DNA of 34,680 nt from a virus (IMGVR_UViG_3300042860_002944:1-34680), one strand, 5' to 3'; counted from the first letter of the stretch, positions 337-10,048 are shown. Notes: generated by a model from the letters alone, not told the origin. Made by a program: numbers and translations.

Positions 337-391
337 GTTCGGGAAACCGAACCGTTGGCCTCTTGACTTTTCAGGGGCACCGTGCTATATT
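337..391 (+). promoter_or_regulatory. Promoter with class A inverted repeat
   Basis: Operator GTTCGGGAAACCGAAC at 337-352 has perfect 6-bp arms around 4 bp. The -35 TTGACT is at 363-368, the spacer is 17 bp, and the extended -10 is TG-C-TATATT with its hexamer at 386-391. It drives the gene at 423 through a leader carrying AAAGGAG. Confidence 0.8.
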
Positions 392-422
392 ACATTCAAT
401 AAACAACAAAGGAGAAAAACAA

Positions 423-1256
423 ATGGTTGCGTTTGCAATGCAAGACAAGCTGGATTGGACCGTCAGCAAGCGCACGCTGTGCTTTATGACGAGCAACGGT
501 GAGTTGCAGGCTTGGGATGAGAAAAAGGCTGTGGTTCGCGATGATAATGATGTTGCGCTCGGTGTAGTCTCACCTGGATATGAGCTGGTGCAAAATGAGG
601 ACCTGAAGCAGTTGGTTGCCCCGATGATTGGGGAGGGATTGCTCACGGTGAAGAATCAAGGGTACCTTAACAAGGGTGCAAAGGTGTTTATTCAGGCTGA
701 AGTTGCACAGGATTTTCAAGTTGCGGGTGAGAGCTACAAGGGACTGATTACGTTGCTTAACGGTCATACTGGTAACGCATCTGTTGCCATTGGGACTACG
801 GCAACGCGGGTTATTTGCTCAAACACGTTTGCTATGGCGTATAGCGACATCGGGACGAAATTCCGTCACTCGGAAGGTGTCACCGACCGTGTGTTGTCGT
901 CGACTGTTGTTATCGACTATGTCAATGACGCAATGCGGAAGTATGCAGAGTATGTGGAGAAGTTGGATACCACGCCGTGCTCACCTGCACAGTTTAAGCA
1001 AGCTGTTGAGGCTATCTACGGTCAGCCTGCTGACAAGATGCGTGGCTCTTTTGTGGATCAGCTGAATAGCTTGTTTTACAATGGTAAGGGTAACTCTGGT
1101 AAGACTTTTTATGATGGCTTCAATGCCATCACGGAGTATGCCACGCATTATTCTCGGAAAAGTGCCGACGGCAGGTTTAACTACTCGAACTTTGGTAAGG
1201 GCGCTGACATTAACAGGCGTGCTCTGGCTGTGTTCGCCGAGATGGCCACGGTATAA
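423..1256 (+). CDS. DUF932-family phage/plasmid-like protein
   Basis: The product is 277 aa. It resembles the DUF932 (phage/plasmid-like TIGR03299) family: early motifs around SPGYELVQNEDL, a central globular part with GLITLLNGHTGNASVAIGTT, and the characteristic TRVICSNTFAMA stretch near residues 130-141, followed by a helical C-terminal half. DUF932 proteins are frequent on phages and plasmids and have no settled biochemical role. The frame is open further upstream to 363, but ATG 423 is chosen because AAAGGAG lies just before it and because 363 falls on the promoter -35. It has its own class A promoter and no obvious operon partner. A role in replication or host takeover would be guesswork. 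Confidence 0.75.
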   Translation: MVAFAMQDKLDWTVSKRTLCFMTSNGELQAWDEKKAVVRDDNDVALGVVSPGYELVQNEDLKQLVAPMIGEGLLTVKNQGYLNKGAKVFIQAEVAQDFQVAGESYKGLITLLNGHTGNASVAIGTTATRVICSNTFAMAYSDIGTKFRHSEGVTDRVLSSTVVIDYVNDAMRKYAEYVEKLDTTPCSPAQFKQAVEAIYGQPADKMRGSFVDQLNSLFYNGKGNSGKTFYDGFNAITEYATHYSRKSADGRFNYSNFGKGADINRRALAVFAEMATV

Positions 1257-1260
1257 CAAA

Positions 1261-1316
1261 GTTCGGTAACCCGAACCTCGTGGGGGCTTGCGTTGCGGGC
1301 CCTTTCGTGCTATATT
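1261..1316 (+). promoter_or_regulatory. Promoter with class A inverted repeat
   Basis: Operator GTTCGGTAACCCGAAC at 1261-1276 starts 4 bases after the preceding stop. The -35 TTGCGT is at 1288-1293, the spacer is 17 bp, and the -10 TATATT at 1311-1316 is preceded by TGC. The leader carries ACGGAG before ATG 1346. Confidence 0.8.
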
Positions 1317-1345
1317 ACACTCATACAAACAACGGAGAAAACCAA

Positions 1346-1774
1346 ATGGTTACGCTGACTGTGAGCTACAGAGACACCCTCAAGCCTGCAACTGTTGCAT
1401 ACATTGACGAGCTGTGCGGTGATGGTGGTGAGTATGGTTTGCCCTGCGCACTTGAGTTTATTGATGAGTACGGTGAGGAGAACTTTGCAGAGTTTTATGA
1501 ACTGTATGTGGAGCAAGGTGAGGAACTTGGATACGATGTTGTGGATGCCTGGGTGTCAGAAAATGACTTTGACAAGCTGAATCGGTTGGAAGATGCGTAC
1601 GTTGGCGAGTTTGCCAACGGTGCAGAGCTTGCAATGCACATTGCCGACGAGGAGGGTGTCTACATTCCTGACTTCATTTCCGTTGACTGGGATGAAACCT
1701 ACGATAACCTCCGCAGTGATTACACCGAGATCGATTACGACGGAAAGACTTTTTTCTTTCGGCGTTGGTTCTGA
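1346..1774 (+). CDS. ArdA-like antirestriction protein
   Basis: A 142-aa, strongly acidic protein. It matches the ArdA pattern as I know it: FIDEYGEENFAEFYELYVEQ, then LGYDVVDAWV, then LEDAYVGEF, and a C-terminal DWDETYDNLRSDYTEID with an aromatic end (FFFRRWF). ArdA proteins are elongated acidic dimers that mimic B-form DNA and block type I restriction enzymes. It is a little shorter than classical ArdA (about 165 aa). ATG 1346 is chosen over an upstream GTG at 1280 because GGAG precedes it and the GTG lies inside the promoter. It heads a short operon with genes at 1807 and 1978. The protein at 5486-5980 shares its C-terminal part. Confidence 0.7.
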   Translation: MVTLTVSYRDTLKPATVAYIDELCGDGGEYGLPCALEFIDEYGEENFAEFYELYVEQGEELGYDVVDAWVSENDFDKLNRLEDAYVGEFANGAELAMHIADEEGVYIPDFISVDWDETYDNLRSDYTEIDYDGKTFFFRRWF

Positions 1775-1783
1775 GTTAATAGG

Positions 1784-1791
1784 TATAAATA
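1784..1791 (+). promoter_or_regulatory. TATAAATA octamer, possible T4-type late promoter
   Basis: TATAAATA lies 15 bases before ATG 1807. It matches the late promoter consensus of T4-type phages. I see only one other clear copy (9354-9361), and that one sits inside a diverged 25-bp element, so this may be chance. Confidence 0.3.
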
Positions 1792-1806
1792 CTTACGTTA
1801 CGCAAA

Positions 1807-1962
1807 ATGAAAGAATTCGCCACTCAAACTCTCGCACTGATTCTCACCTGCGCAGTGCTAATCATCGGTTTCCCAATCGTAATGAAATTGCTCTTTACGA
1901 TCGGTCCGGTTGCACTGCTGGTGTTGGTTGTTGGAGTACTATTTGTGATGGCAACGAGGTGA
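1807..1962 (+). CDS. Small membrane protein, 51 aa
   Basis: ATG 1807 opens 51 codons ending at TGA 1960-1962. After a short polar start (MKEFATQT) the chain is almost wholly hydrophobic, in two segments of about 17-20 residues: LALILTCAVLIIGFPIV, then LLFTIGPVALLVLVVGVLFV after a single Met-Lys. This predicts a two-pass inner or thylakoid membrane hairpin with short ends. No good Shine-Dalgarno sequence is visible. It lies 32 bases after the ArdA-like gene and 15 bases before the next gene, so cotranscription is likely. A holin-like role is possible from size and topology but nothing proves it. Confidence 0.55.
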   Translation: MKEFATQTLALILTCAVLIIGFPIVMKLLFTIGPVALLVLVVGVLFVMATR

Positions 1963-1977
1963 TTTCTGGAGGTTACC

Positions 1978-2160
1978 ATGAGAGTTTCAAACTGGGAGCA
2001 CAACTCGGGAAAGCGTAAGCAAACTCGGGGAATGTGTAAGGGTAAGCTGAGAGCGAGAAAGCAAAGTCTGCAGGCTCTGAAAAACAAATTGAAGGTTCGG
2101 GAAACCGTACCGCCTAACCCCTTGACTGTTGAGGGGTTTTCTGGTATATTGGTTCTATGA
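1978..2160 (+). CDS. Small basic protein, 60 aa
   Basis: ATG 1978 has an excellent ribosome site (GGAGG, 5 bases upstream). The N-terminal 40 residues are very basic (GKRKQTRGMCKGKLRARKQ), suggesting nucleic acid or membrane-surface contact. The C-terminal third is encoded by the DNA that also forms the promoter of the next gene, and its TGA overlaps the next ATG at 2157. The overlap with a promoter makes the last residues poorly constrained. The strong ribosome site argues it is expressed. No family is recognised. Confidence 0.45.
   Translation: MRVSNWEHNSGKRKQTRGMCKGKLRARKQSLQALKNKLKVRETVPPNPLTVEGFSGILVL
2095..2150 (+). promoter_or_regulatory. Promoter with class A inverted repeat, leaderless type
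   Basis: Operator GTTCGGGAAACCGTAC is at 2095-2110, -35 TTGACT at 2122-2127, spacer 17 bp, -10 TATATT at 2145-2150 with TGG before it. Exactly 6 bases separate the -10 from ATG 2157, so the transcript should begin at or within a base or two of the start codon. The spacer lies in an AGGGG/CCCCT inverted repeat. Confidence 0.75.
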
Positions 2161-2651
2161 CTGAAAACAACGCAATGAGTGACAAGTTTGTTTATTACAT
2201 CGGGGATTTGTGTTTCGTGCTCACTGACACCGAGTGGGACACACTTTGTGCGCAGGTGCCCTCAAAGGGTGACATGCTTGACGACATTGAGAGCGAAGAT
2301 GGCTATGACAATGAGTTTTTTCTTGATGTGGAAAGGCTCAGTGCGTATGCTGTGAGTTTGGACGGTGAGGACTACGAAGCGGCGCGGCCCTTTGTGTGTT
2401 TTAGTACGGCGTATGGTGATGGTCAGTATAACGATTTAGATGGCAATCCCTACGCTGTTGATAGCGGCACGATCGGAATGATTGATGTTAGGTATATCTC
2501 GGACAGTGCGAAGTTGGAGCGTGCTGTGCAGAATGGATTGGGGCACTTGGTTGAGGCTGACGCACCGATTGACCCGTCAGAGAGCTACTACGATGAGGGT
2601 GTGATTACGTTTGGGGCGATGAGTGTGGGGGTGGAGATTGATACTAATTGA
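2157..2651 (+). CDS. Unknown acidic protein, 164 aa, probably translated from leaderless mRNA
   Basis: A 164-aa acidic protein with 15 or more aromatic residues. Its centre has FSTAYGDGQYNDLDGNPYAV followed by DSGTIGMIDV, a glycine and aspartate rich stretch I associate with uncharacterised phage and bacterial proteins of unknown role. There is no signal peptide or membrane segment. ATG 2157 lies 6 bases from the -10, leaving no room for a ribosome site; ATG 2175 is an alternative but also lacks one. A G/C-run terminator follows the stop codon, so the gene is a single transcription unit. Function not assigned. Confidence 0.65.
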   Translation: MTENNAMSDKFVYYIGDLCFVLTDTEWDTLCAQVPSKGDMLDDIESEDGYDNEFFLDVERLSAYAVSLDGEDYEAARPFVCFSTAYGDGQYNDLDGNPYAVDSGTIGMIDVRYISDSAKLERAVQNGLGHLVEADAPIDPSESYYDEGVITFGAMSVGVEIDTN

Positions 2652-2675
2652 TTTATTTTGAGATAAAATCGTACT

Positions 2676-2712
2676 GGGGGGAGGGGGAGCCCCCCCCCCT
2701 CTTTACGTTTTT
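2676..2712 (+). terminator. Rho-independent terminator with homopolymer G/C stem
   Basis: A run of G (2676-2681), A, then GGGGG, a short turn, then ten C and TC, followed by TTTACGTTTTT. The G and C runs can pair in several registers. It sits 24 bases after the stop of the 2157 gene and before the differently organised gene at 2797. Confidence 0.65.
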
Positions 2713-2756
2713 AAATTTACTGCTACCGAAAAAGTTTATATTAATGGTGTTATCTT

Positions 2757-2790
2757 TAGAGAAGTTTCGTGGTGAATCTTCTCTCTTTTC
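2757..2790 (+). terminator. Hairpin in leader of the 2797 gene (attenuator or terminator-like)
   Basis: AGAGAAG and CTTCTCT arms enclose a 13-base loop and are followed by CTTTT. It lies just before ATG 2797. It could be a terminator for read-through from the left or a control hairpin in the 2797 leader. The pairing is seen directly; the role is inferred. Confidence 0.4.
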
Positions 2791-2796
2791 ACCACA

Positions 2797-3435
2797 ATGA
2801 AGTTTTTTAAGAATACGATGGCGGAACTCACGGCGATACACGAAACGCTGGAATGGTTGGAAGCTCAAGCACTGCAGCTTGGCGTTCCTTCGGACAATGT
2901 TACCATCACAAATTCTCGCCAGAAAGTAGATCGAATTGTGCGCGAGTGGCAGAGAGCAGAGCAAACCGCACGAGAGATCGGTTATAACTCATTGCCGATT
3001 GCGTTGAAAGCACTGAAGCAAATAAAGAGGACACAAATTGCAGGCTTGAGTAACTTACCGGAGGTGTTTCACACCGTTCCCAATATCTGGTTGTCTGGAA
3101 AGGTGGATACGAGAAAGAACCCTGGATTTAAGCCAATGTCGCTCTCAGCAGCTCTTAGGAAGCATAGAGTTGTGCAACCACTGTTAATCGAGGCTTGGCA
3201 ACTTTCAGAAGGTGACGAGCAGATTCAAACGCAAATCGAGAGAGAGTATCTTACGGTTTCAGCAGACGACTTTGAGAAGGCTCTGTATCGTTATATTTAC
3301 GACCTGGAGGAGGTTACTTTAGAGGAGGAGTTCTCAAACATGCTTCCTGCTACAGAGGAGGATGTTGCAGCCTCACTGAAACTGGCAACCGATCCAGACA
3401 GGATTTACGGAGTGCAGAAAAAGAGCAAAAACTAA
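2797..3435 (+). CDS. Unknown helical protein, 212 aa
   Basis: A 212-aa soluble protein of mixed charge. The first 90 residues look alpha-helical (AELTAIHETLEWLEAQALQL, then VDRIVREWQRAEQTAREI). The C-terminal 70 residues are acidic with DDFEKALYRYIYDLEEVTLE. ATG 2797 gives MKFFKNTM; ATG 2818 (MAELT) is an alternative start, and neither has a clear ribosome site. The region 2713-2796 holds the TATATT-like sequence at 2734-2739 but no class A, B or C operator, so this gene is regulated differently from its neighbours. A 230-base non-coding region follows it. I do not recognise the family. Confidence 0.6.
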   Translation: MKFFKNTMAELTAIHETLEWLEAQALQLGVPSDNVTITNSRQKVDRIVREWQRAEQTAREIGYNSLPIALKALKQIKRTQIAGLSNLPEVFHTVPNIWLSGKVDTRKNPGFKPMSLSAALRKHRVVQPLLIEAWQLSEGDEQIQTQIEREYLTVSADDFEKALYRYIYDLEEVTLEEEFSNMLPATEEDVAASLKLATDPDRIYGVQKKSKN

Positions 3436-3664
3436 CAAAAATCTCCGCAAAAAGAGCGCCAAACCTTCACACCACCGTCCCCACGATTCGGCTTCGGGGC
3501 ACACACCGCCCAGGGCATTATCCCCCGTGGGCATTATCAACAGGGTGCATTATTGAGAGGGGATTATTATACAGAGTGCCCCGAGCGCATTATCCCCAGC
3601 GCAAAAAGCACAGTTTCATTATACTCATTATAGCACCACCCACCAACTGTAACCCACCCAGAGA
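3436..3664. repeat. Non-coding region with seven repeated ATTAT boxes
   Basis: No convincing gene is present. Between 3515 and 3632 the motif GCATTATC and close variants recur, with the A of ATTAT at 3517, 3533, 3549, 3563, 3589, 3618 and 3627; the first three spacings are 16, 16 and 14 bases. The boxes are separated by C/G-rich words such as CCCCCGTGG. The -10 of the next promoter, CATTAT at 3715, resembles the same word. Iterated sites of this spacing occur in protein-binding arrays and replication origins. Confidence 0.5.
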
Positions 3665-3720
3665 GTTCGGTTATCCGTACCTCCGCACCCCTTGCAAAAC
3701 CTGCGGTTTTGTGCCATTAT
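3665..3720 (+). promoter_or_regulatory. Promoter with class A inverted repeat
   Basis: Operator GTTCGGTTATCCGTAC is at 3665-3680, -35 TTGCAA at 3692-3697, spacer 17 bp, -10 CATTAT at 3715-3720 preceded by TGC. The spacer contains a perfect AAAACC-tgc-GGTTTT repeat. The predicted leader to ATG 3745 is about 18 bases and has no ribosome site. Confidence 0.75.
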
Positions 3721-3744
3721 ACACTCATACGACACAACACCGCA

Positions 3745-3954
3745 ATGGCCCTCTCAACTAAAGCCCTCAATCTCCTCGCTGACAGTCTCGCCCCCAAAAT
3801 CGCAGAGGAGCTTTATAGCTCCGAGGCATTTATAGAGTTTATGCATCGCCAGGTTCCTGCCATTATTGACAGCGAGATCGGAGAAATGGACGACGATCTA
3901 ATGTTTGACCTTGCACTGATGTGCATGGAGCGCATTATCCTCAAGGCCATCTGA
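3745..3954 (+). CDS. Small acidic helical protein, 69 aa
   Basis: A 69-aa protein: an amphipathic N-terminal half (ALNLLADSLAPKIAEELYSS), then an acidic patch (DSEIGEMDDDLMFDL), ending in a short helix with two Met and a Cys (ALMCMERIILKAI). It is predicted almost all alpha. The frame is open further upstream to 3709, but ATG 3745 is the first ATG after the predicted transcription start. It is the first gene of a two-gene cassette, followed by a 25-bp A/T-rich element and the gene at 3986. No family is recognised. Confidence 0.55.
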   Translation: MALSTKALNLLADSLAPKIAEELYSSEAFIEFMHRQVPAIIDSEIGEMDDDLMFDLALMCMERIILKAI

Positions 3955-3960
3955 TTATAA

Positions 3961-3985
3961 CAAAAAAGTTTCAAACACTATTCTC
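3961..3985 (+). promoter_or_regulatory. 25-bp intercistronic A/T-rich element, copy 1
   Basis: CAAAAA, then AGTTTCAAACAC, then TATTCTC, ending directly at ATG 3986. The same 25-bp pattern stands before the genes at 5486, 6491 and 7045. No Shine-Dalgarno sequence accompanies it. It may act as a promoter, a ribosome-recruiting leader or an RNA processing site. Confidence 0.55.
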
Positions 3986-4147
3986 ATGATTATCAACAAC
4001 CGCGAAACAGAGCGCTTCACCTCATTTACAGAGGCAGTGCAATGGGTTATGGCAAAGTGCGACTGTTCTAATCAAACCGCCACGCACATTGTGTGGGACA
4101 AGCAATTTACAATGGGCACAGATCGTGCGATCTGGATTACACTTTGA
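3986..4147 (+). CDS. Small protein, 53 aa
   Basis: ATG 3986 follows the 25-bp element at once, and the frame runs 53 codons to TGA 4145-4147. The sequence includes FTSFTEAVQWVMAKCDCSNQ and a Trp-rich end (HIVWDKQF, AIWITL). The operator of the next promoter begins 3 bases after the stop, the tight packing seen throughout this region. Its position after a repeated element and in a cassette supports it as a real gene. Function unknown. Confidence 0.5.
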   Translation: MIINNRETERFTSFTEAVQWVMAKCDCSNQTATHIVWDKQFTMGTDRAIWITL

Positions 4148-4150
4148 GAG

Positions 4151-4206
4151 GTTCGGTTACCCGTACCTGCAACCCCCTTGCAAAACCGCAGGTTTTGTGC
4201 CATACT
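4151..4206 (+). promoter_or_regulatory. Promoter with class A inverted repeat, leaderless type
   Basis: Operator GTTCGGTTACCCGTAC is at 4151-4166, -35 TTGCAA at 4178-4183, spacer 17 bp containing AAAACC-gca-GGTTTT, -10 CATACT at 4201-4206 after TGC. Six bases lie between the -10 and ATG 4213. Confidence 0.8.
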
Positions 4207-4212
4207 ATGACT

Positions 4213-4422
4213 ATGGAAATTCAAACTTTATTCGGCGCCCTCGCCGTAACTTACTACCTCGCATTTGCAGACTGTGGCGTTATCTGTGAGGATGAGGAAT
4301 TCACCAGCCTCGATAGAGCAAGGGACTGCGCTTTTGATATCTCTGCGGAGACGAATCGCAGGGTTAATGTCATTGAGTGCTTTGGTCAAAGTGAGCACTT
4401 GGTTGAGTCAATCCTGGCTTAG
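4213..4422 (+). CDS. Small protein, 69 aa, predicted leaderless
   Basis: A 69-aa protein starting with a short hydrophobic stretch (LFGALAVTYYLAFADCGVI), too weak for a clear signal peptide but possibly membrane-associated, followed by an acidic segment (CEDEEFTSLDRARD). The rest reads like a small alpha/beta fold (FDISAETNRRVNVIECFG). ATG 4213 is placed by the 6-base rule shared with six other promoters here; ATG 4207 is in frame but lies before the expected transcript start. Function unknown. Confidence 0.55.
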   Translation: MEIQTLFGALAVTYYLAFADCGVICEDEEFTSLDRARDCAFDISAETNRRVNVIECFGQSEHLVESILA

Positions 4423-4441
4423 GTTATACTTTGCCCCGTGC

Positions 4442-4491
4442 GTAACGATTTGTTACAGCCTCTTGACTTCTCACCCGAACTGTGCCATACT
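4442..4491 (+). promoter_or_regulatory. Promoter with class B inverted repeat, leaderless type
   Basis: Operator GTAACGATTTGTTAC is at 4442-4456, 6 bases before -35 TTGACT (4463-4468). The spacer is 17 bp and the -10 CATACT (4486-4491) follows TGC. Six bases (TAAACC) separate it from ATG 4498. Confidence 0.8.
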
Positions 4492-4497
4492 TAAACC

Positions 4498-5178
4498 ATG
4501 GACAAAACAAAAATGAACAACAATTTCGCAGACCTTCTTTCCTTTGCCGGTTATACTGAGGCACAAATCGACAGGTATTTCAAACTCGTCGCACGTAAGC
4601 GTAACTTTGGCCCTGGCTCTTTGAATGTTTCTGACCGCAGATTTCTGCTCAAAGCTGTTGCTGAGGCTCGCGCCGCAGAGGCTAAACTTGAGTCGCAAAT
4701 TGCTGCTGCACAAAAAGCACGAGTGAGCGGCAAACAGCCCGTTGAGACTAAACTTCATTACCGTTGGATTGACGCTGAACGCGAGATTGCGTCGCAACTC
4801 ATTGAGATCAAACCCGGAGAATTGAGCGCCTACGTTATCATTCGTGAGGAGCAACTTCGCGCACTTTCAAAGTATCAACCTGTCCTCGATCAAGTTGATA
4901 CCTCAAAGCGTTCGATGTTTAACAAAAACGAATCTGAGTTGCTGACACTCGCGGCGCAGTTTGGTCGGATCGCCCAATTCGACAAAGTTTTGTTCACACA
5001 GCAACTCTCTGCCGCATTCAATGAGCAGTGGAATGATAGGTGGAGTACCGGACTTGGGGTAGATTGTGATACTCTTGGCGCCGTTATTCCTGACACTTTC
5101 GAACTCGAGTTTCGTGAGTTGGTAAGGTCGGAGGTCGAAACATTTACCAGCACGGTGTTTCCCTCCGTTGCTGTTTGA
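4498..5178 (+). CDS. Unknown protein, 226 aa, predicted leaderless
   Basis: A 226-aa soluble protein. Residues 8-70 look helical (FADLLSFAGYTEAQIDRYFK, then FLLKAVAEARAAEAKLESQI) with an Ala-rich segment that may form a short coiled coil. A central part (HYRWIDAEREIASQLIEI) is followed by an acidic, aromatic C-terminus. It is the only gene of its unit: a class B promoter precedes it and another class B promoter follows. The start is set by the 6-base spacing from the -10; ATG 4510 is a second possibility. No family is recognised. Confidence 0.6.
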   Translation: MDKTKMNNNFADLLSFAGYTEAQIDRYFKLVARKRNFGPGSLNVSDRRFLLKAVAEARAAEAKLESQIAAAQKARVSGKQPVETKLHYRWIDAEREIASQLIEIKPGELSAYVIIREEQLRALSKYQPVLDQVDTSKRSMFNKNESELLTLAAQFGRIAQFDKVLFTQQLSAAFNEQWNDRWSTGLGVDCDTLGAVIPDTFELEFRELVRSEVETFTSTVFPSVAV

Positions 5179-5217
5179 GATTGTAGATTATGCAAAGTTA
5201 CGGGGTTAAATGTAATT

Positions 5218-5267
5218 GTAACAAATTGCAACAACCCCTTGACTTCCCGCCCGAACCGTGCCATACT
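5218..5267 (+). promoter_or_regulatory. Promoter with class B inverted repeat, leaderless type
   Basis: Operator GTAACAAATTGCAAC is at 5218-5232, 6 bases before -35 TTGACT (5239-5244). The spacer is 17 bp and -10 CATACT is at 5262-5267. Six bases (TAAAGC) lead to ATG 5274. Core and initial region nearly copy the promoter at 4463-4491, spacer included. Confidence 0.8.
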
Positions 5268-5273
5268 TAAAGC

Positions 5274-5444
5274 ATGAACAAAACACAGACCTTTTTCGTT
5301 GCACAGTTCCAGCCTCATTCTCAGGAGGTGGAGATCCTCTGGGAATGCACCAGTGAGCAACAAGCAGAGGACGCATGTGAGAGGTTAAACTCTAACCTTG
5401 CCCTTGCAGGGATTCCCGGCGAGTATTATGCATACGTTCTCTGA
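5274..5444 (+). CDS. Small protein, 56 aa, predicted leaderless
   Basis: ATG 5274 opens 56 codons to TGA 5442-5444. The protein begins with a beta-like stretch (TQTFFVAQFQP), has an acidic helix (SEQQAEDACERLNSNLA) and ends GEYYAYVL, consistent with a small ferredoxin-like alpha/beta fold. The C-terminal tyrosine-rich end is typical of small cyanophage proteins, though I cannot name a family. A 25-bp element and the cyAbrB/ArdA-like gene follow in the same cassette. Confidence 0.5.
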   Translation: MNKTQTFFVAQFQPHSQEVEILWECTSEQQAEDACERLNSNLALAGIPGEYYAYVL

Positions 5445-5460
5445 CTGACCACACTTTCAA

Positions 5461-5485
5461 CAAAAAGGTTTAAACATTTTTCTCT
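5461..5485 (+). promoter_or_regulatory. 25-bp intercistronic A/T-rich element, copy 2
   Basis: CAAAAAGGTTTAAACA followed by TTTTTCTCT, abutting ATG 5486. It matches the copies at 3961, 6457 and 7015 at most positions. Confidence 0.55.
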
Positions 5486-5980
5486 ATGAATCAAACCATC
5501 ATTCCTACACTGACCGGCGCCGAACTGCTCACCAAGGTTAACGCAATGCGTGAGGCTAATGCGACCAACAGTGAGATTGCGCACGCTTGTGGTTATACTC
5601 GGGACAATGGCAATCCTGCCTTCACTGACTTTTACACTGCGCTAATCGCTGCCAAGTTTCCTGATGGCATCCCTGTTGAGGATGACGCTGAAGCCGACGC
5701 AAAGGTCATTGAGCTCGCAGAGAGTTACCCAATGGGTGCCATTGAGGCCTTCTGTGATTACTGGAGCACCGACGATTTGGAGAGCTTTGAAGAGGCTTAC
5801 AACGGGGAATGGGAGAGCGGAGCAGAGTTCGCCAAGGATCTTGTGGAAGGTTGCTATAACTGTGACGCCCTCAATCTGCCTTACTGGGTTACAGTGAGGA
5901 TTGATTGGGAGGACACTTGGGATAACCTACGTGACGACTACATTGAGCTTAACGGTTACATTTTCTCTTTGAATTGGTAG
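5486..5980 (+). CDS. Fusion of cyAbrB-like N-terminal domain with ArdA-like domain
   Basis: A 164-aa protein in two parts. Residues 9-56 carry TGAELLTKV, then SEIAHACGYT and FTDFYTALIAAK, which match the N-terminal segment of cyanobacterial AbrB-like regulators (pattern: LTG.ALL.KV, RETAK.CGY, N.TDFYDA.L.AK). Residues from about 70 on are acidic, with FEEAYNGEWESGAEFA, DWEDTWDNLRDDYIE and a final FSLNW, matching the C-terminal part of ArdA antirestriction proteins and the gene at 1346. The AbrB DNA-binding swapped-hairpin domain is absent. It could be a DNA mimic directed at host cyAbrB or restriction enzymes; that is inference. A 25-bp element, not a ribosome site, precedes the ATG. Confidence 0.65.
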   Translation: MNQTIIPTLTGAELLTKVNAMREANATNSEIAHACGYTRDNGNPAFTDFYTALIAAKFPDGIPVEDDAEADAKVIELAESYPMGAIEAFCDYWSTDDLESFEEAYNGEWESGAEFAKDLVEGCYNCDALNLPYWVTVRIDWEDTWDNLRDDYIELNGYIFSLNW

Positions 5981-5992
5981 GTTGAGGTTGCG

Positions 5993-6038
5993 GTAGTACA
6001 GGTGTACTAGCCGCCCGGGTCGGTAGTACAAGCGTACT
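5993..6038. repeat. Cassette-boundary palindrome, double copy
   Basis: An imperfect GTAGTAC-N4-GTACTAG at 5993-6010, then GCCCGGGTCG, then a second degenerate copy at 6023-6038. This is the first and only doubled example of the boundary palindrome that recurs at 6712, 7434, 7890, 8229, 8519, 9003 and 9581. It sits 13 bases after a stop codon. Confidence 0.7.
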
Positions 6039-6097
6039 GTGACAGTCGGCAAACTGGCACAAGACCCCTTGCAAAGGGCGGGCAAACGTGCCATACT
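6039..6097 (+). promoter_or_regulatory. Promoter with class C operator
   Basis: The 22-bp class C operator is at 6039-6060 (GTGACA-N10-TGGCAC), 8 bases before -35 TTGCAA (6069-6074). The spacer is 17 bp and the -10 CATACT is at 6092-6097 after TGC. TTGC-N9-GCAA spans the -35 and spacer. The leader is AACAAGCAAAGAAAAGCA before ATG 6122. Confidence 0.8.
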
Positions 6098-6121
6098 ATG
6101 TTCAACAAGCAAAGAAAAGCA

Positions 6122-6442
6122 ATGCGCAAGATTGAAGAGCAAATGAACGACGCCATCACTGCCAGCAAGGATTGGCAGGGTGACAATACCACGGTAACTA
6201 ACACCGAAGGTGTTTCCACGGTGTTGCTTCACGGTAACAAGATTGCAGAGGTTGGTGATACTTGGCTGCGCCTTTTTGATGGAGGTCATCGCAGTGCCAC
6301 TACTAAGTCTCGCCTGAACGCTATTCTGCGTGTGCATGGTTGTAACTTTGACGGTGTCTTTCAGAAGAAAGGTGAATGGTTCTTTCATGACTCTGCAAGG
6401 TCCATTGACCTGCCCTTTGAGAGTGGTATGGTTGTGGGTTAG
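6122..6442 (+). CDS. Conserved phage protein of unknown function, 106 aa
   Basis: A 106-aa protein. The core reads VSTVLLHGNKIAEV, then WLRLFDGGHRSATTKSRLNA and VFQKKGEWFF. From memory, this arrangement (V.LHGN.IA, LFDGG..T.TTKSRLNA, GVFQK..EW) is shared by small uncharacterised proteins of several phage groups. It looks like a compact beta-rich fold. An in-frame ATG at 6098 is rejected because it directly abuts the -10 and would not be transcribed. A 25-bp element and the gene at 6491 complete the cassette. Confidence 0.65.
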   Translation: MRKIEEQMNDAITASKDWQGDNTTVTNTEGVSTVLLHGNKIAEVGDTWLRLFDGGHRSATTKSRLNAILRVHGCNFDGVFQKKGEWFFHDSARSIDLPFESGMVVG

Positions 6443-6456
6443 GCTCTGAACTTTCG

Positions 6457-6481
6457 CAAAAACATTTCAAACATTTTTCTC
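6457..6481 (+). promoter_or_regulatory. 25-bp intercistronic A/T-rich element, copy 3
   Basis: CAAAAACATTTCAAACA followed by TTTTTCTC, 9 bases before ATG 6491. Confidence 0.55.
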
Positions 6482-6490
6482 AAAAACACA

Positions 6491-6709
6491 ATGGCAATCT
6501 GGCATCAAGCTTCTTCTCTCGCAACACGTGAAACCATCTGGGTGTCTACGAATGTTGTAAAGCAACGGCCTCAACTAAACTCCCATCGTAGCGAGTGTTA
6601 TGCACGGGAGGGTATTGATGGGTTCAGTGCGTTAGAAATTGCAGGTCTGCACACTGACTACGTAGGTAATGACTGGCAGTCAAAGTATGTAGGATTCATG
6701 GCGAGGTGA
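6491..6709 (+). CDS. Small protein, 72 aa
   Basis: A 72-aa protein beginning MAIWHQASSLATRETIWVST and ending DWQSKYVGFMAR. The N-terminal half is basic and mixed; the second half (GFSALEIAGLHTDYVGND) may form one helix and a loop. It lies 9 bases after the third 25-bp element, and its stop is 3 bases before the next boundary palindrome, the usual cassette spacing. No family is recognised. Confidence 0.5.
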   Translation: MAIWHQASSLATRETIWVSTNVVKQRPQLNSHRSECYAREGIDGFSALEIAGLHTDYVGNDWQSKYVGFMAR

Positions 6710-6711
6710 GA

Positions 6712-6740
6712 GTAGTACGCCGGTACTACCGGCCCGGGCC
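6712..6740. repeat. Cassette-boundary palindrome with CCCGGG core
   Basis: GTAGTAC-gccg-GTACTAC at 6712-6729 is a perfect 7-bp stem with a 4-base loop. It is followed by GGCCCGGGCC at 6731-6740, itself a perfect palindrome. No T-run follows. Confidence 0.75.
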
Positions 6741-6745
6741 GCCCT

Positions 6746-6804
6746 GTGCCAATCCAGAAACTGTCACAACCCCCCTTGCGCTTGGCCCTGAACCGTGCCA
6801 TACT
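6746..6804 (+). promoter_or_regulatory. Promoter with class C operator
   Basis: The 22-bp operator GTGCCA-N10-TGTCAC is at 6746-6767, with an 8-base gap, -35 TTGCGC at 6776-6781, spacer 17 bp, -10 CATACT at 6799-6804. The leader AACAAGGAAAGGAAAGCA has a good ribosome site before ATG 6829 and is nearly identical to the leader at 6104-6121. Confidence 0.8.
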
Positions 6805-6828
6805 ATGTTCAACAAGGAAAGGAAAGCA

Positions 6829-7008
6829 ATGCAAGTCTATTCGGTGATGGGTGGTTGGGACTACGAGGGTTTTGACGGTGAGTCCCTGCGACTGTTTGAC
6901 TTCAAGTCTGCTGCTGAGGCTTACGCCGAAGGTCTCAAAGATGAGAACTACGACTATGTCACGGTCAAGGTGATGGATGTCTGCATGCAGTCGGCAATCC
7001 TGCCCTGA
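6829..7008 (+). CDS. Small protein, 59 aa
   Basis: A 59-aa protein: MQVYSVMGGWDYEGFDGESL, a helix with SAAEAYAEGLKDENYDYV, then a beta strand VTVKVMDVCM. The beta-alpha-beta order and the Y-x-V-x-GGWDYEG start resemble small cyanophage proteins I cannot name further. A clear ribosome site (AAGGAAAGG) supports ATG 6829. Two further genes at 7045 and 7200 follow after a 25-bp element. Confidence 0.6.
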   Translation: MQVYSVMGGWDYEGFDGESLRLFDFKSAAEAYAEGLKDENYDYVTVKVMDVCMQSAILP

Positions 7009-7014
7009 GTAACA

Positions 7015-7039
7015 CAAAAAACTTTCAAACATTTTTCGC
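7015..7039 (+). promoter_or_regulatory. 25-bp intercistronic A/T-rich element, copy 4
   Basis: CAAAAAACTTTCAAACA followed by TTTTTCGC, 5 bases before ATG 7045. Confidence 0.55.
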
Positions 7040-7044
7040 TAACT

Positions 7045-7203
7045 ATGAAACAACTTCACACTGAAAACGAACTGAGCTCCGAGGTCATTGCGATGCTCGC
7101 TGACTTTGACACGCCAAACTTTGACGCAGACGGTGACAACTTGATTGATGACAGCTGGCTCGACAGCTTTGTCGAGGATCGCTTTGGCGGAGACTTTGAA
7201 TGA
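7045..7203 (+). CDS. Small very acidic protein, 52 aa
   Basis: 52 residues with 15 Asp/Glu and only two basic residues (Lys2 and Arg46). The second half (NFDADGDNLIDDSWLDSF) is loaded with Asp at 2-4 residue intervals. Such charge is seen in DNA-mimic proteins and in RNA polymerase-binding phage peptides, but no motif proves either. It follows the fourth 25-bp element, and its TGA overlaps the ATG of the next gene (ATGA at 7200), implying translational coupling. Confidence 0.5.
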   Translation: MKQLHTENELSSEVIAMLADFDTPNFDADGDNLIDDSWLDSFVEDRFGGDFE

Positions 7204-7433
7204 ACTACACTTCCCCCAACGGTAACATTTACGAGGTCACAACCGAGGTCCTCACTCGCACTGACTATGGCACCTTTGGTGATCCTGACAGTGTGTTTCA
7301 AACGGAACACACGCAGTATTCGATATACTTTGAAGGTCAAATGGTTCAGTTCTGTTTCAGCGAAGGTGAGGTCCCTGCTGCTGTTGCAAGGTTTGAGAGT
7401 CCTGTTGCTGGCATAGGTTCGCGCTGGGACTGA
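7200..7433 (+). CDS. Small beta-rich protein, 77 aa
   Basis: A 77-aa protein translated from an ATGA overlap. Strand-like segments alternate with turns: MNYTSPNGNIYEVTTEVL, then TEHTQYSIYFEGQMVQFCF, ending AVARFESPVAGIGSRWD. This suggests a small beta sheet. It has one Cys, no signal peptide and no membrane span. The boundary palindrome begins at the base after its stop codon. Function unknown. Confidence 0.55.
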   Translation: MNYTSPNGNIYEVTTEVLTRTDYGTFGDPDSVFQTEHTQYSIYFEGQMVQFCFSEGEVPAAVARFESPVAGIGSRWD

Positions 7434-7463
7434 ATAGTACGGGTGTACTATTGGCCCGGGCCA
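7434..7463. repeat. Cassette-boundary palindrome with CCCGGG core
   Basis: ATAGTAC-gggt-GTACTAT at 7434-7451 has a perfect 7-bp stem in which both arms changed together relative to GTAGTAC/GTACTAC. TGGCCCGGGCCA follows at 7452-7463. The matched change in both arms suggests selection on the stem. Confidence 0.75.
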
Positions 7464-7464
7464 T

Positions 7465-7523
7465 AGGCCAGTTGGCAAAGTGGCACAGTGCCCCTTGCGG
7501 TTGCTCCGCAACCGTGCCATACT
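7465..7523 (+). promoter_or_regulatory. Promoter with class C operator, leaderless type
   Basis: The operator is at 7465-7486 (AGGCCA-N10-TGGCAC), then an 8-base gap, -35 TTGCGG at 7495-7500, spacer 17 bp, -10 CATACT at 7518-7523. TTGC-N9-GCAA spans the -35 and spacer. Six bases (ACGTAC) lead to ATG 7530. Confidence 0.8.
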
Positions 7524-7529
7524 ACGTAC

Positions 7530-7883
7530 ATGAACAACGAAACCCCCATGACCAAGCGCACCGTTGCTCTCCTGGCTGCTGCCGCTGTTGTTGTGGTCGG
7601 TGCCCTGGCCCAGAACCAGGTCACTCAGCGTGATAGGGAGGCTGCCCTTGACGCCTACAAAACGCAGCAGGCCATGGCTCAGCTGGATAAGACCCTGGCA
7701 GCGGCGGAGGTTGCCCCTGAACCCGAACCCGCTCCCTCCTTCCGCGATGGTCTCAGCTACACAGACAAACTTGTGTATGATGCCGCTCAGCGTCAGGTTG
7801 AGAAGTGCGATCAGGACTGGCTGCCCTCCACTTGCGCCAAGATGCGTGCGGACTTCAAAGCCCAGATGGGTTGGGAGTTCTGA
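7530..7883 (+). CDS. Membrane-anchored or secreted protein, 117 aa, predicted leaderless
   Basis: A 117-aa protein. Residues 8-28 (TKRTVALLAAAAVVVVGALA) form one strong hydrophobic segment after a short basic start: a signal anchor or signal peptide. A helical, charged part (REAALDAYKTQQAMAQLDKT) and a Pro/Glu linker (APEPEPAPS) follow, then a small C-terminal domain with two cysteines (EKCDQDW, STCAK) that could form a disulfide outside the cytoplasm. This layout fits a periplasmic or inner-membrane accessory protein such as a lysis or superinfection factor; the role is not shown. The start follows the 6-base rule. Confidence 0.6.
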   Translation: MNNETPMTKRTVALLAAAAVVVVGALAQNQVTQRDREAALDAYKTQQAMAQLDKTLAAAEVAPEPEPAPSFRDGLSYTDKLVYDAAQRQVEKCDQDWLPSTCAKMRADFKAQMGWEF

Positions 7884-7889
7884 GGCCAA

Positions 7890-7917
7890 GTAGTACGCCG
7901 GTACTACCGGCCCGGGG
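7890..7917. repeat. Cassette-boundary palindrome with CCCGGG core
   Basis: GTAGTAC-gccg-GTACTAC at 7890-7907 is perfect and identical to the copy at 6712. CGGCCCGGGG follows. Confidence 0.75.
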
Positions 7918-7921
7918 CCAT

Positions 7922-7980
7922 GGGCCAGTTGGTAAAGTGGCACAACCCCGCTTGCAAAAGGCTTGGCAACGTGCCATACT
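7922..7980 (+). promoter_or_regulatory. Promoter with class C operator
   Basis: The operator is at 7922-7943 (GGGCCA-N10-TGGCAC), with an 8-base gap, -35 TTGCAA at 7952-7957, spacer 17 bp, -10 CATACT at 7975-7980. The leader is ATACCAAAGGAAAAAACC before ATG 8005. Confidence 0.8.
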
Positions 7981-8004
7981 ATGGGCATACCAAAGGAAAA
8001 AACC

Positions 8005-8220
8005 ATGTACGCACTCAACACCTCCTACTCCGACGCTGCCTGCGAGGTCACCCTCAACCCCTTCGCTGGCACCGCCAAGGTGTGGTTCTGGCAGGGAGGT
8101 CCCTACACCTACAAGCGTGTCTCCCGTCGTGCCATTGCCAAGGCTATCGTCACCGACGTGGTGACCGGAGGTCTGCCCTCGGTGGGCCAGTGGCTGCACG
8201 CCAACTGCATCAACCGCTGA
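8005..8220 (+). CDS. KTSC-like small protein, 71 aa
   Basis: A 71-aa protein. The pattern VTLNPFAGTAKVWFWQGGPY, TYKRVSRRAIAKAIV and SVGQWLHANCI resembles the KTSC domain: a strand, a Gly-turn, Y-x-Y-x-x-V, a helix, then S-x-G-x-[WF]-x-x-x-[IH]. KTSC domains are small, common in phages and bacteria, and lack a settled function. Match strength is moderate since the family is short and I judged it by eye. A clear AAAGGAAA ribosome site supports the start. Codon use here is visibly more G/C-rich than in the genes before 7 kb. Confidence 0.5.
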   Translation: MYALNTSYSDAACEVTLNPFAGTAKVWFWQGGPYTYKRVSRRAIAKAIVTDVVTGGLPSVGQWLHANCINR

Positions 8221-8228
8221 GGTCTCGG

Positions 8229-8257
8229 GTAGTACTTCTGTACTACCGACCCGGGCC
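8229..8257. repeat. Cassette-boundary palindrome with CCCGGG core
   Basis: GTAGTAC-ttct-GTACTAC at 8229-8246, perfect 7-bp stem, followed by CGACCCGGGCC. Confidence 0.75.
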
Positions 8258-8261
8258 CTGT

Positions 8262-8311
8262 GTTACGGTTTGTAACAACCCCTTGACAACGGGGGCCAGG
8301 TGTGCCATACT
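8262..8311 (+). promoter_or_regulatory. Promoter with class B inverted repeat, leaderless type
   Basis: Operator GTTACGGTTTGTAAC is at 8262-8276, a 6-base gap, -35 TTGACA at 8283-8288, spacer 17 bp, -10 CATACT at 8306-8311. Six bases (AACAGT) lead to ATG 8318. Confidence 0.8.
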
Positions 8312-8317
8312 AACAGT

Positions 8318-8503
8318 ATGGAAAACCAAATCAGCCTCACCTACGCCGTCCAACCCGCTGGCTGGACTGCCCTTGACCCGCAGAAGGCTCTGTGGGCCCT
8401 TGACGTTGAAGACGCACGTCGCTGTGCCCACCTGCTAGGTCAGCACTGCCTCCTGTGGGTTGCCCCTGTCGTGGGCGCACCTTACGCCCTCTGCCACCTG
8501 TAG
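8318..8503 (+). CDS. Small protein, 61 aa, predicted leaderless
   Basis: A 61-aa protein (MENQISLTYAVQPAGWTALD) with a helical middle (ALWALDVEDARRCAHLLGQH) and a hydrophobic end containing two Cys (CLLWVAPVVGAPYALCHL). The end might touch a membrane but is interrupted by Pro and Gly. The start is set by the 6-base spacing; there is no ribosome site. It is alone in its cassette, between two boundary palindromes. Function unknown. Confidence 0.5.
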   Translation: MENQISLTYAVQPAGWTALDPQKALWALDVEDARRCAHLLGQHCLLWVAPVVGAPYALCHL

Positions 8504-8518
8504 GTTGCCGAGGTCAGA

Positions 8519-8546
8519 GTAGTACATGGGTACTACCGACCCGGCC
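8519..8546. repeat. Cassette-boundary palindrome
   Basis: GTAGTAC-atgg-GTACTAC at 8519-8536, perfect stem. The following core is CGACCCGGCC, lacking one G of the usual CCCGGG. Confidence 0.7.
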
Positions 8547-8549
8547 CGT

Positions 8550-8600
8550 GTAACGAAGTGTGACAAGGCCTTGACCCACCCCTGGCAGGTGTGCCATACT
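8550..8600 (+). promoter_or_regulatory. Promoter with class B inverted repeat
   Basis: Operator GTAACGAAGTGTGAC is at 8550-8564, a 6-base gap, -35 TTGACC at 8571-8576, spacer 18 bp (the only one not 17), -10 CATACT at 8595-8600. The leader ATACCAAAGGAAAGAC nearly matches the one at 7987-8004 although the operator class differs. Confidence 0.75.
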
Positions 8601-8622
8601 ATGAGCATACCAAAGGAAAGAC

Positions 8623-8745
8623 ATGGAATTCGAAACCCTCGACCAAGACATCATGAGCCTGCTCGCAGGTCTGGAGGCTGACCTCGGCTGCGACCTGGAC
8701 GTGCTAGACTTCAACCCTGACGAGGACCTTGACGAGGTGGCCTGA
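8623..8745 (+). CDS. Tiny highly acidic protein, 40 aa
   Basis: 40 residues with 14 Asp/Glu and no Lys or Arg. The first half (DQDIMSLLAGLEADL) can form an amphipathic helix; the second half (DFNPDEDLDEVA) is almost pure acid. A clean ribosome site (AAAGGAAAG) and a complete promoter show that the phage invests in expressing it. DNA mimicry, or binding to a basic face of a host protein, is plausible but unproven. A promoter for the next gene lies inside its 3-prime end. Confidence 0.55.
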   Translation: MEFETLDQDIMSLLAGLEADLGCDLDVLDFNPDEDLDEVA

Positions 8746-8758
8746 GGCCTGCTACACT
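8729..8758 (+). promoter_or_regulatory. Probable promoter embedded in the end of the 8623 gene
   Basis: TTGACG at 8729-8734, spacer 18 bp, then TGC-TACACT with the hexamer at 8753-8758. It has the extended -10 of the other cassettes but no operator and no boundary palindrome. It would serve the gene at 8780. Confidence 0.45.
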
Positions 8759-8779
8759 AAAACCACAGCAAACGAAACC

Positions 8780-8995
8780 ATGGTCACAACCGCCCTTTCC
8801 CGCCTCTCCGACGAAACCCTGGAATCCCTGTGGGACCGCTATCAGGTGACCGCTCAGTACGACCTGCAGGAGGATGTGCTCAAAGTGCTGCTCACCCGCG
8901 AGGACTTTCACCCGCAGTCCTACGACCTGCTGTGGGAGCTGCAGGACGCTGGCTGGAACGGAGGCTGCACCCAGGAAGACCGCGACGCTCGCTGA
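8780..8995 (+). CDS. Small acidic helical protein, 71 aa
   Basis: A 71-aa protein: LSRLSDETLESLWDRYQV, AQYDLQEDVLKVLLTREDFH, YDLLWELQDAGWNGG. It is predicted mostly helical with regular Leu and Trp spacing and net negative charge. The frame is open upstream to 8729, but ATG 8780 is the first ATG after the predicted promoter. The next boundary palindrome starts 7 bases after its stop. No family is recognised. Confidence 0.55.
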   Translation: MVTTALSRLSDETLESLWDRYQVTAQYDLQEDVLKVLLTREDFHPQSYDLLWELQDAGWNGGCTQEDRDAR

Positions 8996-9002
8996 GGTCA
9001 CA

Positions 9003-9030
9003 CTGGTACGGGCGTACTACCGCCCCGGGC
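9003..9030. repeat. Cassette-boundary palindrome, degenerate left arm
   Basis: CTGGTAC-gggc-GTACTAC at 9003-9020 keeps GTAC/GTAC but has lost the outer pairs. CGCCCCGGGC follows. Confidence 0.6.
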
Positions 9031-9036
9031 GCCCCT

Positions 9037-9095
9037 GTGCCAATCCGCAAACTGGCACACACCCGCTTGCGATCTGCCCCCGCCTGTGCCATACT
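9037..9095 (+). promoter_or_regulatory. Promoter with class C operator, leaderless type
   Basis: The operator has perfect arms GTGCCA-N10-TGGCAC at 9037-9058, an 8-base gap, -35 TTGCGA at 9067-9072, spacer 17 bp, -10 CATACT at 9090-9095. Six bases (ACCAGT) lead to ATG 9102. Confidence 0.8.
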
Positions 9096-9580: not shown

Positions 9581-9608
9581 GTAGTACAAACGTACTACCG
9601 ACCCGGGC
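9581..9608. repeat. Last cassette-boundary palindrome
   Basis: GTAGTAC-aaac-GTACTAC at 9581-9598, then CGACCCGGGC. Unlike the others it is not followed by a class A, B or C promoter. It marks the right end of the cassette region. Confidence 0.7.
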
Positions 9609-9730
9609 TGCCACGAACTTTGTGTCCCTCGTGGGAATGGGTCCCTTCAGGAGACCCTCGTGAATTTAGGCCCGGGTTCGCCTGTGGCGGGACATACGGG
9701 TAGGAATGCAGGTGAGAATCCCCCCGCCCA
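9609..9730. other. Non-coding stretch rich in short hairpins
   Basis: Successive inverted repeats: CCACGA and TCGTGG around 12 bases near 9611-9634, GGGTC and GACCC around TCAGG near 9640-9658, GGC-N7-GCC near 9669, and GGCGGG (from about 9687) with CCCGCC near 9725. No convincing gene is present on either strand until the minus-strand gene ends at 9731. It could be a structured RNA or the remains of a cassette. The pairing is seen; the role is not known. Confidence 0.35.
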
Positions 9731-10048
9731 TCACACATCCACAACCAATCCTTCACCTTCCCTTAACCTGTTATTCCGGGTCCCCTCTAAATGGGTCCCC
9801 TCTGGGGGCAACCCCAAATTCCCAGGCAACCCTCCTTCAACAATCGCGCACACATCAATAATTTCCGGCGCAATTCGCAGCATCCTCCGGTAGGTGCGAC
9901 CTGGGTACATGCATGCAAGCTCCATGGCATCCCTTTCAGTACCGCAATGACAAATTAGGGTCCCATCTCCCCTGAGCACTTCCCAAATTTCCATTTCGCC
10001 CTTTGCATTCATCAAAAGTATTATAATATATTCTCGCGCATGTAGCAT
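9731..10048 (-). CDS. Unknown protein on minus strand, about 105 aa
   Basis: The only probable minus-strand gene. The sequence has protein-like features: EYIIILLMNAKGEMEIWEVL, GTLICHCGTERDAMELACMY, GRTYRRMLRIAPEIIDVCAI, then a Gly/Glu-rich tail. Start choice is uncertain: ATG at 10048 gives MLHAREY, while ATG at 10012 (MNAKGEM) lies 7 bases from a TATAAT and would be near-leaderless like genes to the left. The frame extends to 10084. It diverges from the methyltransferase at 10114. No family is recognised, and a non-coding reading is possible. Confidence 0.45.
   Translation of the reverse strand: MLHAREYIIILLMNAKGEMEIWEVLRGDGTLICHCGTERDAMELACMYPGRTYRRMLRIAPEIIDVCAIVEGGLPGNLGLPPEGTHLEGTRNNRLREGEGLVVDV

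Follow-up and report, generated by a model that had tools for sequence, protein, structure and literature searches.

The first 9.6 kb of the virus record IMGVR_UViG_3300042860_002944 in the IMG/VR database (34,680 bases, all of which we call the window) raise the question of what a palindrome is doing upstream of each of fourteen near-identical promoters. These are extended -10 promoters, all on the + strand, and each carries upstream a palindromic operator of class A, B or C. We argue that they are sigma-70-type promoters used by host RNA polymerase and fitted with docking sites for phage-encoded activators, a reading to which we give a probability of about 0.58. The evidence consists of the sites themselves, their spacing, the phage specificity of class C, and the conservation and exchange of operators upstream of one gene, gp96.

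A core pattern, TTG[AC]-N16/17-TGN-[CT]AT[AT][ACT]T, matched the window 14 times in the forward direction and never in the reverse, against 0.1 expected per strand from 300 dinucleotide shuffles of the window, in which the maximum was 2. All 14 promoters have the TTG at -35, the spacer of 16-18 base pairs (bp), the TGN and the TATAAT-like -10 of a sigma-70 extended -10 promoter. The spacer was 17 bp at 13 of them and 18 bp at the one whose -35 starts at 8571. The -35 sequence followed the operator class, being TTGAC at every class B promoter, TTGC at every class C promoter, and mixed in class A (two TTGAC and three TTGC). The promoters, with the first base of each -35 and -10, and three of the genes downstream are as follows.

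337-391, + strand: class A promoter 1; operator GTTCGG-GAAA-CCGAAC at 337-352, -35 TTGACT at 363, -10 TATATT at 386; drives the DUF932 gene.
1261-1316, + strand: class A promoter 2; operator at 1261-1276, -35 TTGCGT at 1288, -10 TATATT at 1311; drives the ArdA-like gene.
2095-2150, + strand: class A promoter 3; operator at 2095-2110, -35 TTGACT at 2122 within the hairpin CCCCT-AGGGG, which is followed by TTTTCT, -10 TATATT at 2145.
3665-3720, + strand: class A promoter 4; operator at 3665-3680, -35 TTGCAA at 3692, spacer hairpin CAAAACC-TGC-GGTTTTG, -10 CATTAT at 3715.
4151-4206, + strand: class A promoter 5; operator at 4151-4166, -35 TTGCAA at 4178, spacer hairpin CAAAACC-GCA-GGTTTTG, -10 CATACT at 4201.
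4442-4491, + strand: class B promoter 1; operator GTAACGATTTGTTAC from 4442, -35 TTGACT at 4463, -10 CATACT at 4486.
5218-5267, + strand: class B promoter 2; operator GTAACAAATTGCAAC from 5218, -35 TTGACT at 5239, -10 CATACT at 5262.
6039-6097, + strand: class C promoter 1; operator at 6039-6060, -35 TTGCAA at 6069, -10 CATACT at 6092; drives the gp96 gene.
6746-6804, + strand: class C promoter 2; operator at 6746-6767, -35 TTGCGC at 6776, -10 CATACT at 6799.
7465-7523, + strand: class C promoter 3; operator at 7465-7486 with an eroded left arm, -35 TTGCGG at 7495, -10 CATACT at 7518.
7922-7980, + strand: class C promoter 4; operator at 7922-7943 with an eroded left arm, -35 TTGCAA at 7952, -10 CATACT at 7975.
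8262-8311, + strand: class B promoter 3; operator GTTACGGTTTGTAAC from 8262, -35 TTGACA at 8283, -10 CATACT at 8306.
8550-8600, + strand: class B promoter 4; operator GTAACGAAGTGTGAC from 8550, -35 TTGACC at 8571, 18-bp spacer, -10 CATACT at 8595.
9037-9095, + strand: class C promoter 5; operator at 9037-9058, -35 TTGCGA at 9067, -10 CATACT at 9090.
423-1256, + strand: DUF932 gene, downstream of class A promoter 1.
1346-1774, + strand: ArdA-like gene, downstream of class A promoter 2.
6122-6442, + strand: Kyano_Gp96 gene (PF23790, phrog_554), downstream of class C promoter 1; the gene chosen for the cross-phage test.

The operators stand at fixed distances from these cores. The class A pattern GT.CGG-N4-CCG.AC, expected 0.03 times by chance, is present in five copies that end 10 or 11 bp before the -35. 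The class B pattern is weak by itself (about one match expected per strand) and its copies at 5218 and 8550 are imperfect, so that the evidence for class B is the constancy of its 6-bp distance from the -35. The gap is 8 bp in class C, whose full site is TGTGMCAGTT-N4-AACTGKCACA, 24 bp long. Class A sites are 16 bp long and class C sites, as listed above, 22 bp, and their gaps differ too, yet they share a dyad centre 42.5 bp ahead of the first base of the -10 (four of the five A sites and all five C sites; 41.5 bp at the A site at 337). The class B centre lies 37 bp ahead of the -10, or 38 bp with the 18-bp spacer, while its gap to the -35 does not change. The three reported distances therefore collapse to two geometries, one set to the -10 (A and C) and one locked to the -35 (B). 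Counting the -10 as beginning at -12 puts the centres of A and C near -54 and that of B near -49. Between the end of the operator and the -35 there are always 6 to 11 bp, and in none of the 14 promoters does the operator overlap the core. The sequence-only reading that first described this region had placed fourteen promoters at these positions, with a 17-bp spacer (once 18) and with TTGCN at all class C and TTGAC at all class B sites, and exact measurement reproduced each of these points. Its three operator classes stood as to copies and gaps, but the class C site proved longer than the 22 bp first described, and A and C turned out to share one centre.

Class C reaches much beyond one phage. 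A blind scan of IMG/VR with the class C operator alone, and no -10 in the pattern, found at least 120 stretches. From 178 sampled palindromes, each read both ways, we obtained 356 distinct oriented sites, and a near-consensus -10 started 30 bp (79 sites) or 31 bp (45 sites) past the operator, against a mean of 1.6 sites at other offsets. With two readings per palindrome, this corresponds to a -10 at 30 or 31 bp in about 70% of the sampled viral class C palindromes. The same pattern over 257 Gb of cellular genomes found 104 stretches, where about 60 were expected by composition-free chance, and showed no such peak (a -10 at 30 and 31 bp in 2 and 3 of 161 matches). The core of the viral promoters varied with the offset. 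Of the 92 sites of the 31-bp kind, 58 had a TTG where the -35 would be, as against 18 of 105 of the 30-bp kind. Promoters lacking the TTG had TATAAT in 40% and CATACT in 0% of cases, compared with 14% and 14% for those with it, and an extended TG was found in 26% of the former and 56% of the latter. Such a trade-off between -35 and -10 is expected for a core that needs workable strength by either route.

Homologues of gp96 were retrieved by protein, with no use of DNA motifs. A class C-like operator (at least 15 of 18 positions) was present in 28 of 50 distinct upstream regions, and 26 of these 28 had a -10 at 30 or 31 bp; in the shuffled control 1 of 1000 reached a score of 15. Named phages were among the high scores (S-M1 17, S-RIM8 17 and S-ShM2 18). 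When the variant half-site TGGACA was allowed, operator and -10 were in place in 42 of 57 upstream regions, isolates included, a permissive count with no shuffle control. A full class A promoter scan of IMG/VR gave one match, about the number expected by chance. This match, L410, is in a 135-kb cyanophage, directly upstream of its gp96 gene and centred at 41.5, and we take it as a genuine, single example of an A-for-C exchange. Another phage, L407, found in the class B scan, carries A and B operators in tandem at one promoter, its A sites being displaced by roughly one helical turn, towards the core or away from it, compared with those of the window. Because gp96 carries C, a C variant or, in one phage, A at one centre, the operators do swap. 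These two cases bear out the interchangeability that the sequence-only reading had proposed. It had also named the absence or misalignment of the operators in related phages as the result that would speak against it, and for class C we found the opposite, sites recurring aligned to the -10. Its claim that three regulators time sets of takeover genes goes past the data.

The window itself is a T4-like cyanomyovirus fragment, because it encodes a portal, a head protease, a major head protein, a very long tail sheath, a DNA polymerase and a type II topoisomerase, and because the closest named phage is the Synechococcus phage S-CBWM1 (portal 61% and topoisomerase 47% identity). The sheath gene (21453-25469) encodes 1338 amino acids, far more than T4 gp18, and S-CBWM1 likewise has a sheath gene of 4.5 kb. 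Small genes occupy the first 9.6 kb. Two of them encode ArdA-like anti-restriction proteins, one a DUF932 protein and one Gp96, a protein of the Kyanoviridae; the others are mostly unknowns.

A topoisomerase search yielded 38 relatives. Among the closest of them, L014 and L017 have class C sites, and L020 has a class B site that keeps the 6-bp gap and is followed by TTGACT. In more distant relatives (L029-L031, L033 and L035) the class C sites have no -35, and a -10 follows about 30 bp downstream. None of the window's promoters or operators was found in S-CBWM1, an IMG/VR search by the DUF932 gene found no relative, and the first strict IMG/VR patterns for class A and for a further element, D (GTAGTAC-N4-GTACTAC, described below), had no matches. 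Loose class C sites were present in S-PM2 (4), P-SSM2 (3), S-SSM7 (5), S-SKS1 (1) and S-CAM1 (1), and for most of these sites the -10 was 29-31 bp away. Syn9, S-CRM01, S-TIM5, Ma-LMM01, S-RSM4, S-SM2 and S-CBWM1 had not even a loose site. Class C is thus present in S-PM2, P-SSM2 and S-SSM7, and ahead of gp96 in S-RIM8, S-M1 and S-ShM2, and it often lacks a -35. A review reports a putative T4-like middle promoter for Syn9 and P-SSM4 and none for P-SSM2, S-PM2 and S-RSM4 (PMC2984593); in these few phages its distribution and that of class C look complementary.

How could such sites work? A predicted phage DNA-binding activator, probably dimeric, would bind the upstream palindrome. Centred about 54 bp before the start at classes A and C, it could reach the polymerase at its alpha C-terminal domain or at sigma region 4, and such contact would compensate for a poor or missing -35. 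The readers of classes A and C, be they activators or DNA-binding domains, would differ in sequence preference but share one contact geometry, so that the sites become exchangeable at a gene. Class B, locked to the -35 and with a full TTGAC, may represent a second mode, either closer contact or repression. The fixed phase to the -10, the place upstream of the -35, the frequent want of a -35 and the absence from hosts are more readily explained by a phage activator than by a repressor, an RNA stem or a host factor. We infer activation by a protein of phage origin, with early or middle timing. The near absence of class C from host genomes and its fixed spacing in phages point to an undescribed viral on-switch for early-used genes. 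More tentatively, T4-like cyanophages may share a class of promoter that uses a family of phage activators at about -54, its specificity swapped by changing reader and palindrome together, in replacement of the MotA/AsiA middle mode.

Several points weigh against activation by a phage protein. Some class C promoters have a good -35, and activation may be unnecessary there. The A-for-C exchange depends on the single phage L410. A strict class C site is missing from Syn9, S-TIM5, S-CRM01, S-RSM4, S-SM2 and S-CBWM1. No regulator gene was found by domain search (Ogr_Delta, PF04606, was over the cut-off in 0 of 24 phage records) or among the 91 families common near class C sites, which have structural, DNA-processing and metabolic T4-like functions, with no helix-turn-helix regulator among the first 25 families listed.

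Four other explanations have to be weighed. A single phage protein of relaxed specificity might read A, B and C, the classes being products of drift. The B half-sites (TTGTAAC, TGTGAC) do resemble that of C (TGTGMCA), and the TGGACA variant of C exists, but A (GTTCGG) is little like C and the classes are discrete in the window, with no intermediates, which makes a single reader rather unlikely. The palindromes could instead be operators at which a phage protein shuts early promoters off later. Palindromic operators of phages are commonly repressor sites, and class B, with its full TTGAC and extended -10, needs no help. A repressor, however, allows more placements and usually overlaps the region from -35 to +20, whereas A and C never overlap the core and are held within 1 bp relative to the -10; many class C promoters, moreover, have no -35. 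We therefore consider repression an unlikely role for these operators.

It is quite improbable that the phage exploits a host regulator, although such use of PhoB is documented in S-PM2 (PMC10976474) and cyanobacterial genomes, including metagenome-assembled ones, are over-represented among the cellular class C matches, with about 25 of 80 in the list. The picocyanobacterial host family, sampled through 300 genomes, yielded two class C sites, one of them beside an integrase-like gene, where about two were expected by chance, and the reading of class C as a regulon of picocyanobacteria was rejected on this count. The listed cyanobacterial matches are mostly from filamentous or non-host species, share no downstream gene and show no -10 peak. 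The NtcA pattern GTA-N8-TAC fits no A, B or C copy in the window (one B site is GTA-N9-TAC), and NtcA, CRP-type and sigma-54 readings of the operators were rejected for their spacing. The reader of class C could still be a host protein whose natural sites are weak. The sequence GTGACA[CG]TT-N4-AA[CG]TGTCAC is enriched in cyanobacterial genomes (L172-L247), mainly filamentous ones, without -10 phasing, and may be an unrelated repeat or operator.

Finally, composite terminator-promoter units for recombination or insulation (PeSL-like), with the palindrome as an RNA stem or recombination tract, are very doubtful: a perfect hairpin with a T-run between operator and -10 is enriched in class C promoters (9 of 120, 0.17% in shuffles), as are stems below -6 kcal/mol (41% vs 18%), and class A spacers contain stems, one followed by TTTTCT, but most class C promoters have no terminator, three of the five class A sites keep an identical T:T mismatch that disrupts an RNA stem, base identities are conserved between phages, and the transcript begins downstream of the operator. 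The idea that the palindromes are intrinsic terminators in general was rejected on the same 9 of 120.

Other repeats accompany these promoters. The D element, followed by CNGNCCCGGGC, stands 1 to 19 bp after stop codons at 5993-6038, 6712, 7434, 7890, 8229, 8519, 9003 and 9581. It is also present in L013, L014 and L017, and in L014 its arms co-vary (GTGGTAC/GTACCAC, CTGGTAC/GTACCAG), as would be expected of a hairpin at an RNA 3' end. Its core also fits the cyanobacterial LexA box AGTACWNWTGTACT (PMC3091678). A repeated AAAAA-NN-TTT-N-AAA-CATTTTTC at 3961-3983, 5460-5482, 6457-6479 and 7015-7037, just ahead of the start codons of genes that lack their own sigma-70 promoter, may be a further inverted-repeat class or a leader. 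T4-type late promoter motifs, TATAAATA, are found at 1784 and 9354, with a variant, CATAAATA, at 11570. Another recurrent cyanophage promoter, ATCTCGACGAGAC...TTGCAATCTCGTCGAGCTTTGTGCTATAAT, which has CTCGACGAG palindromes both in its spacer and ahead of its -35, occurs in L079, L085, L103, L112, L124, L139, L150, L294 and others, often with a second conserved promoter (GAGGATTATGCACGAGAT...) about 190 bp downstream. Repeats rich in GCATTAT and intergenic repeats rich in GGGTCCC(T/C)T lie at 3500-3620 and 9600-9860, with no match in Rfam, and a GGGTCCC-like sequence follows the D element in L013 and L014.

T4-like cyanophages are among the most abundant marine viruses. They run early and middle transcription without Alt, MotA and AsiA, in a way that a review calls unclear (PMC2984593), and cyanomyoviruses lack motA and asiA (PMC2984593, PMC5780444). 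Being phage-specific, phase-locked to the -10, tied to an orthologous gene across genera, and found in S-PM2 and P-SSM2, where the review reports no T4-like middle promoter (PMC2984593), class C offers bait for the missing regulator and a promoter testable in culturable hosts. If the exchange of operator classes at one position is true, it would show how phages can change the regulation of genes that stay in place.

Phage promoters with operators of the activator type are already known; for a position-locked, swappable set in cyanophages, no description was found in the open-licence literature searched. The promoters at which cyanophages use host factors (PhoB on S-PM2, NtcA by prediction) likewise have an upstream regulator site, but those sites are the host's, whereas class C is at chance level in host genomes. 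Actinophage arrays, such as the stoperators of cluster A and the SAS/ESAS of cluster K, similarly place repeated inverted repeats close to many small genes; stoperators block transcription anywhere, and SAS/ESAS lie near start codons. T4 early promoters also form a large set of strong extended -10 promoters, nearly alike and each serving one small gene, but are not known to carry swappable palindromic operators. The PeSL cassettes of T4-type phages, an early promoter and a stem-loop between small variable genes, are not known to have a position-locked operator. Our units resemble them in part, since terminator-like stems are enriched but rare. At T4 middle promoters, too, a phage element replaces or supplements the -35 of a sigma-70 promoter; the MotA box, which works with AsiA, is non-palindromic and at -30, whereas here the dyad is at about -54, upstream of the -35. 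The late promoters of P2, P4 and 186 are activated by the zinc-finger proteins Ogr and Delta through a TGT...ACA dyad near -55, often have no -35, and use host RNA polymerase. Their 18-bp dyad, TGT-N12-ACA, differs from class C (TGT-N18-ACA, 24 bp) and from class A (GTTCGG-N4-CCGWAC), the genes served here are small unknown genes and not late genes, and the 24 phage records had no Ogr_Delta domain over the cut-off. What the two systems share is the architecture: a dyad near -55 (here centred at about -54, with 41.5 or 42.5 bp to the -10) and, in the 30-bp sites, a TTG in a minority of promoters.

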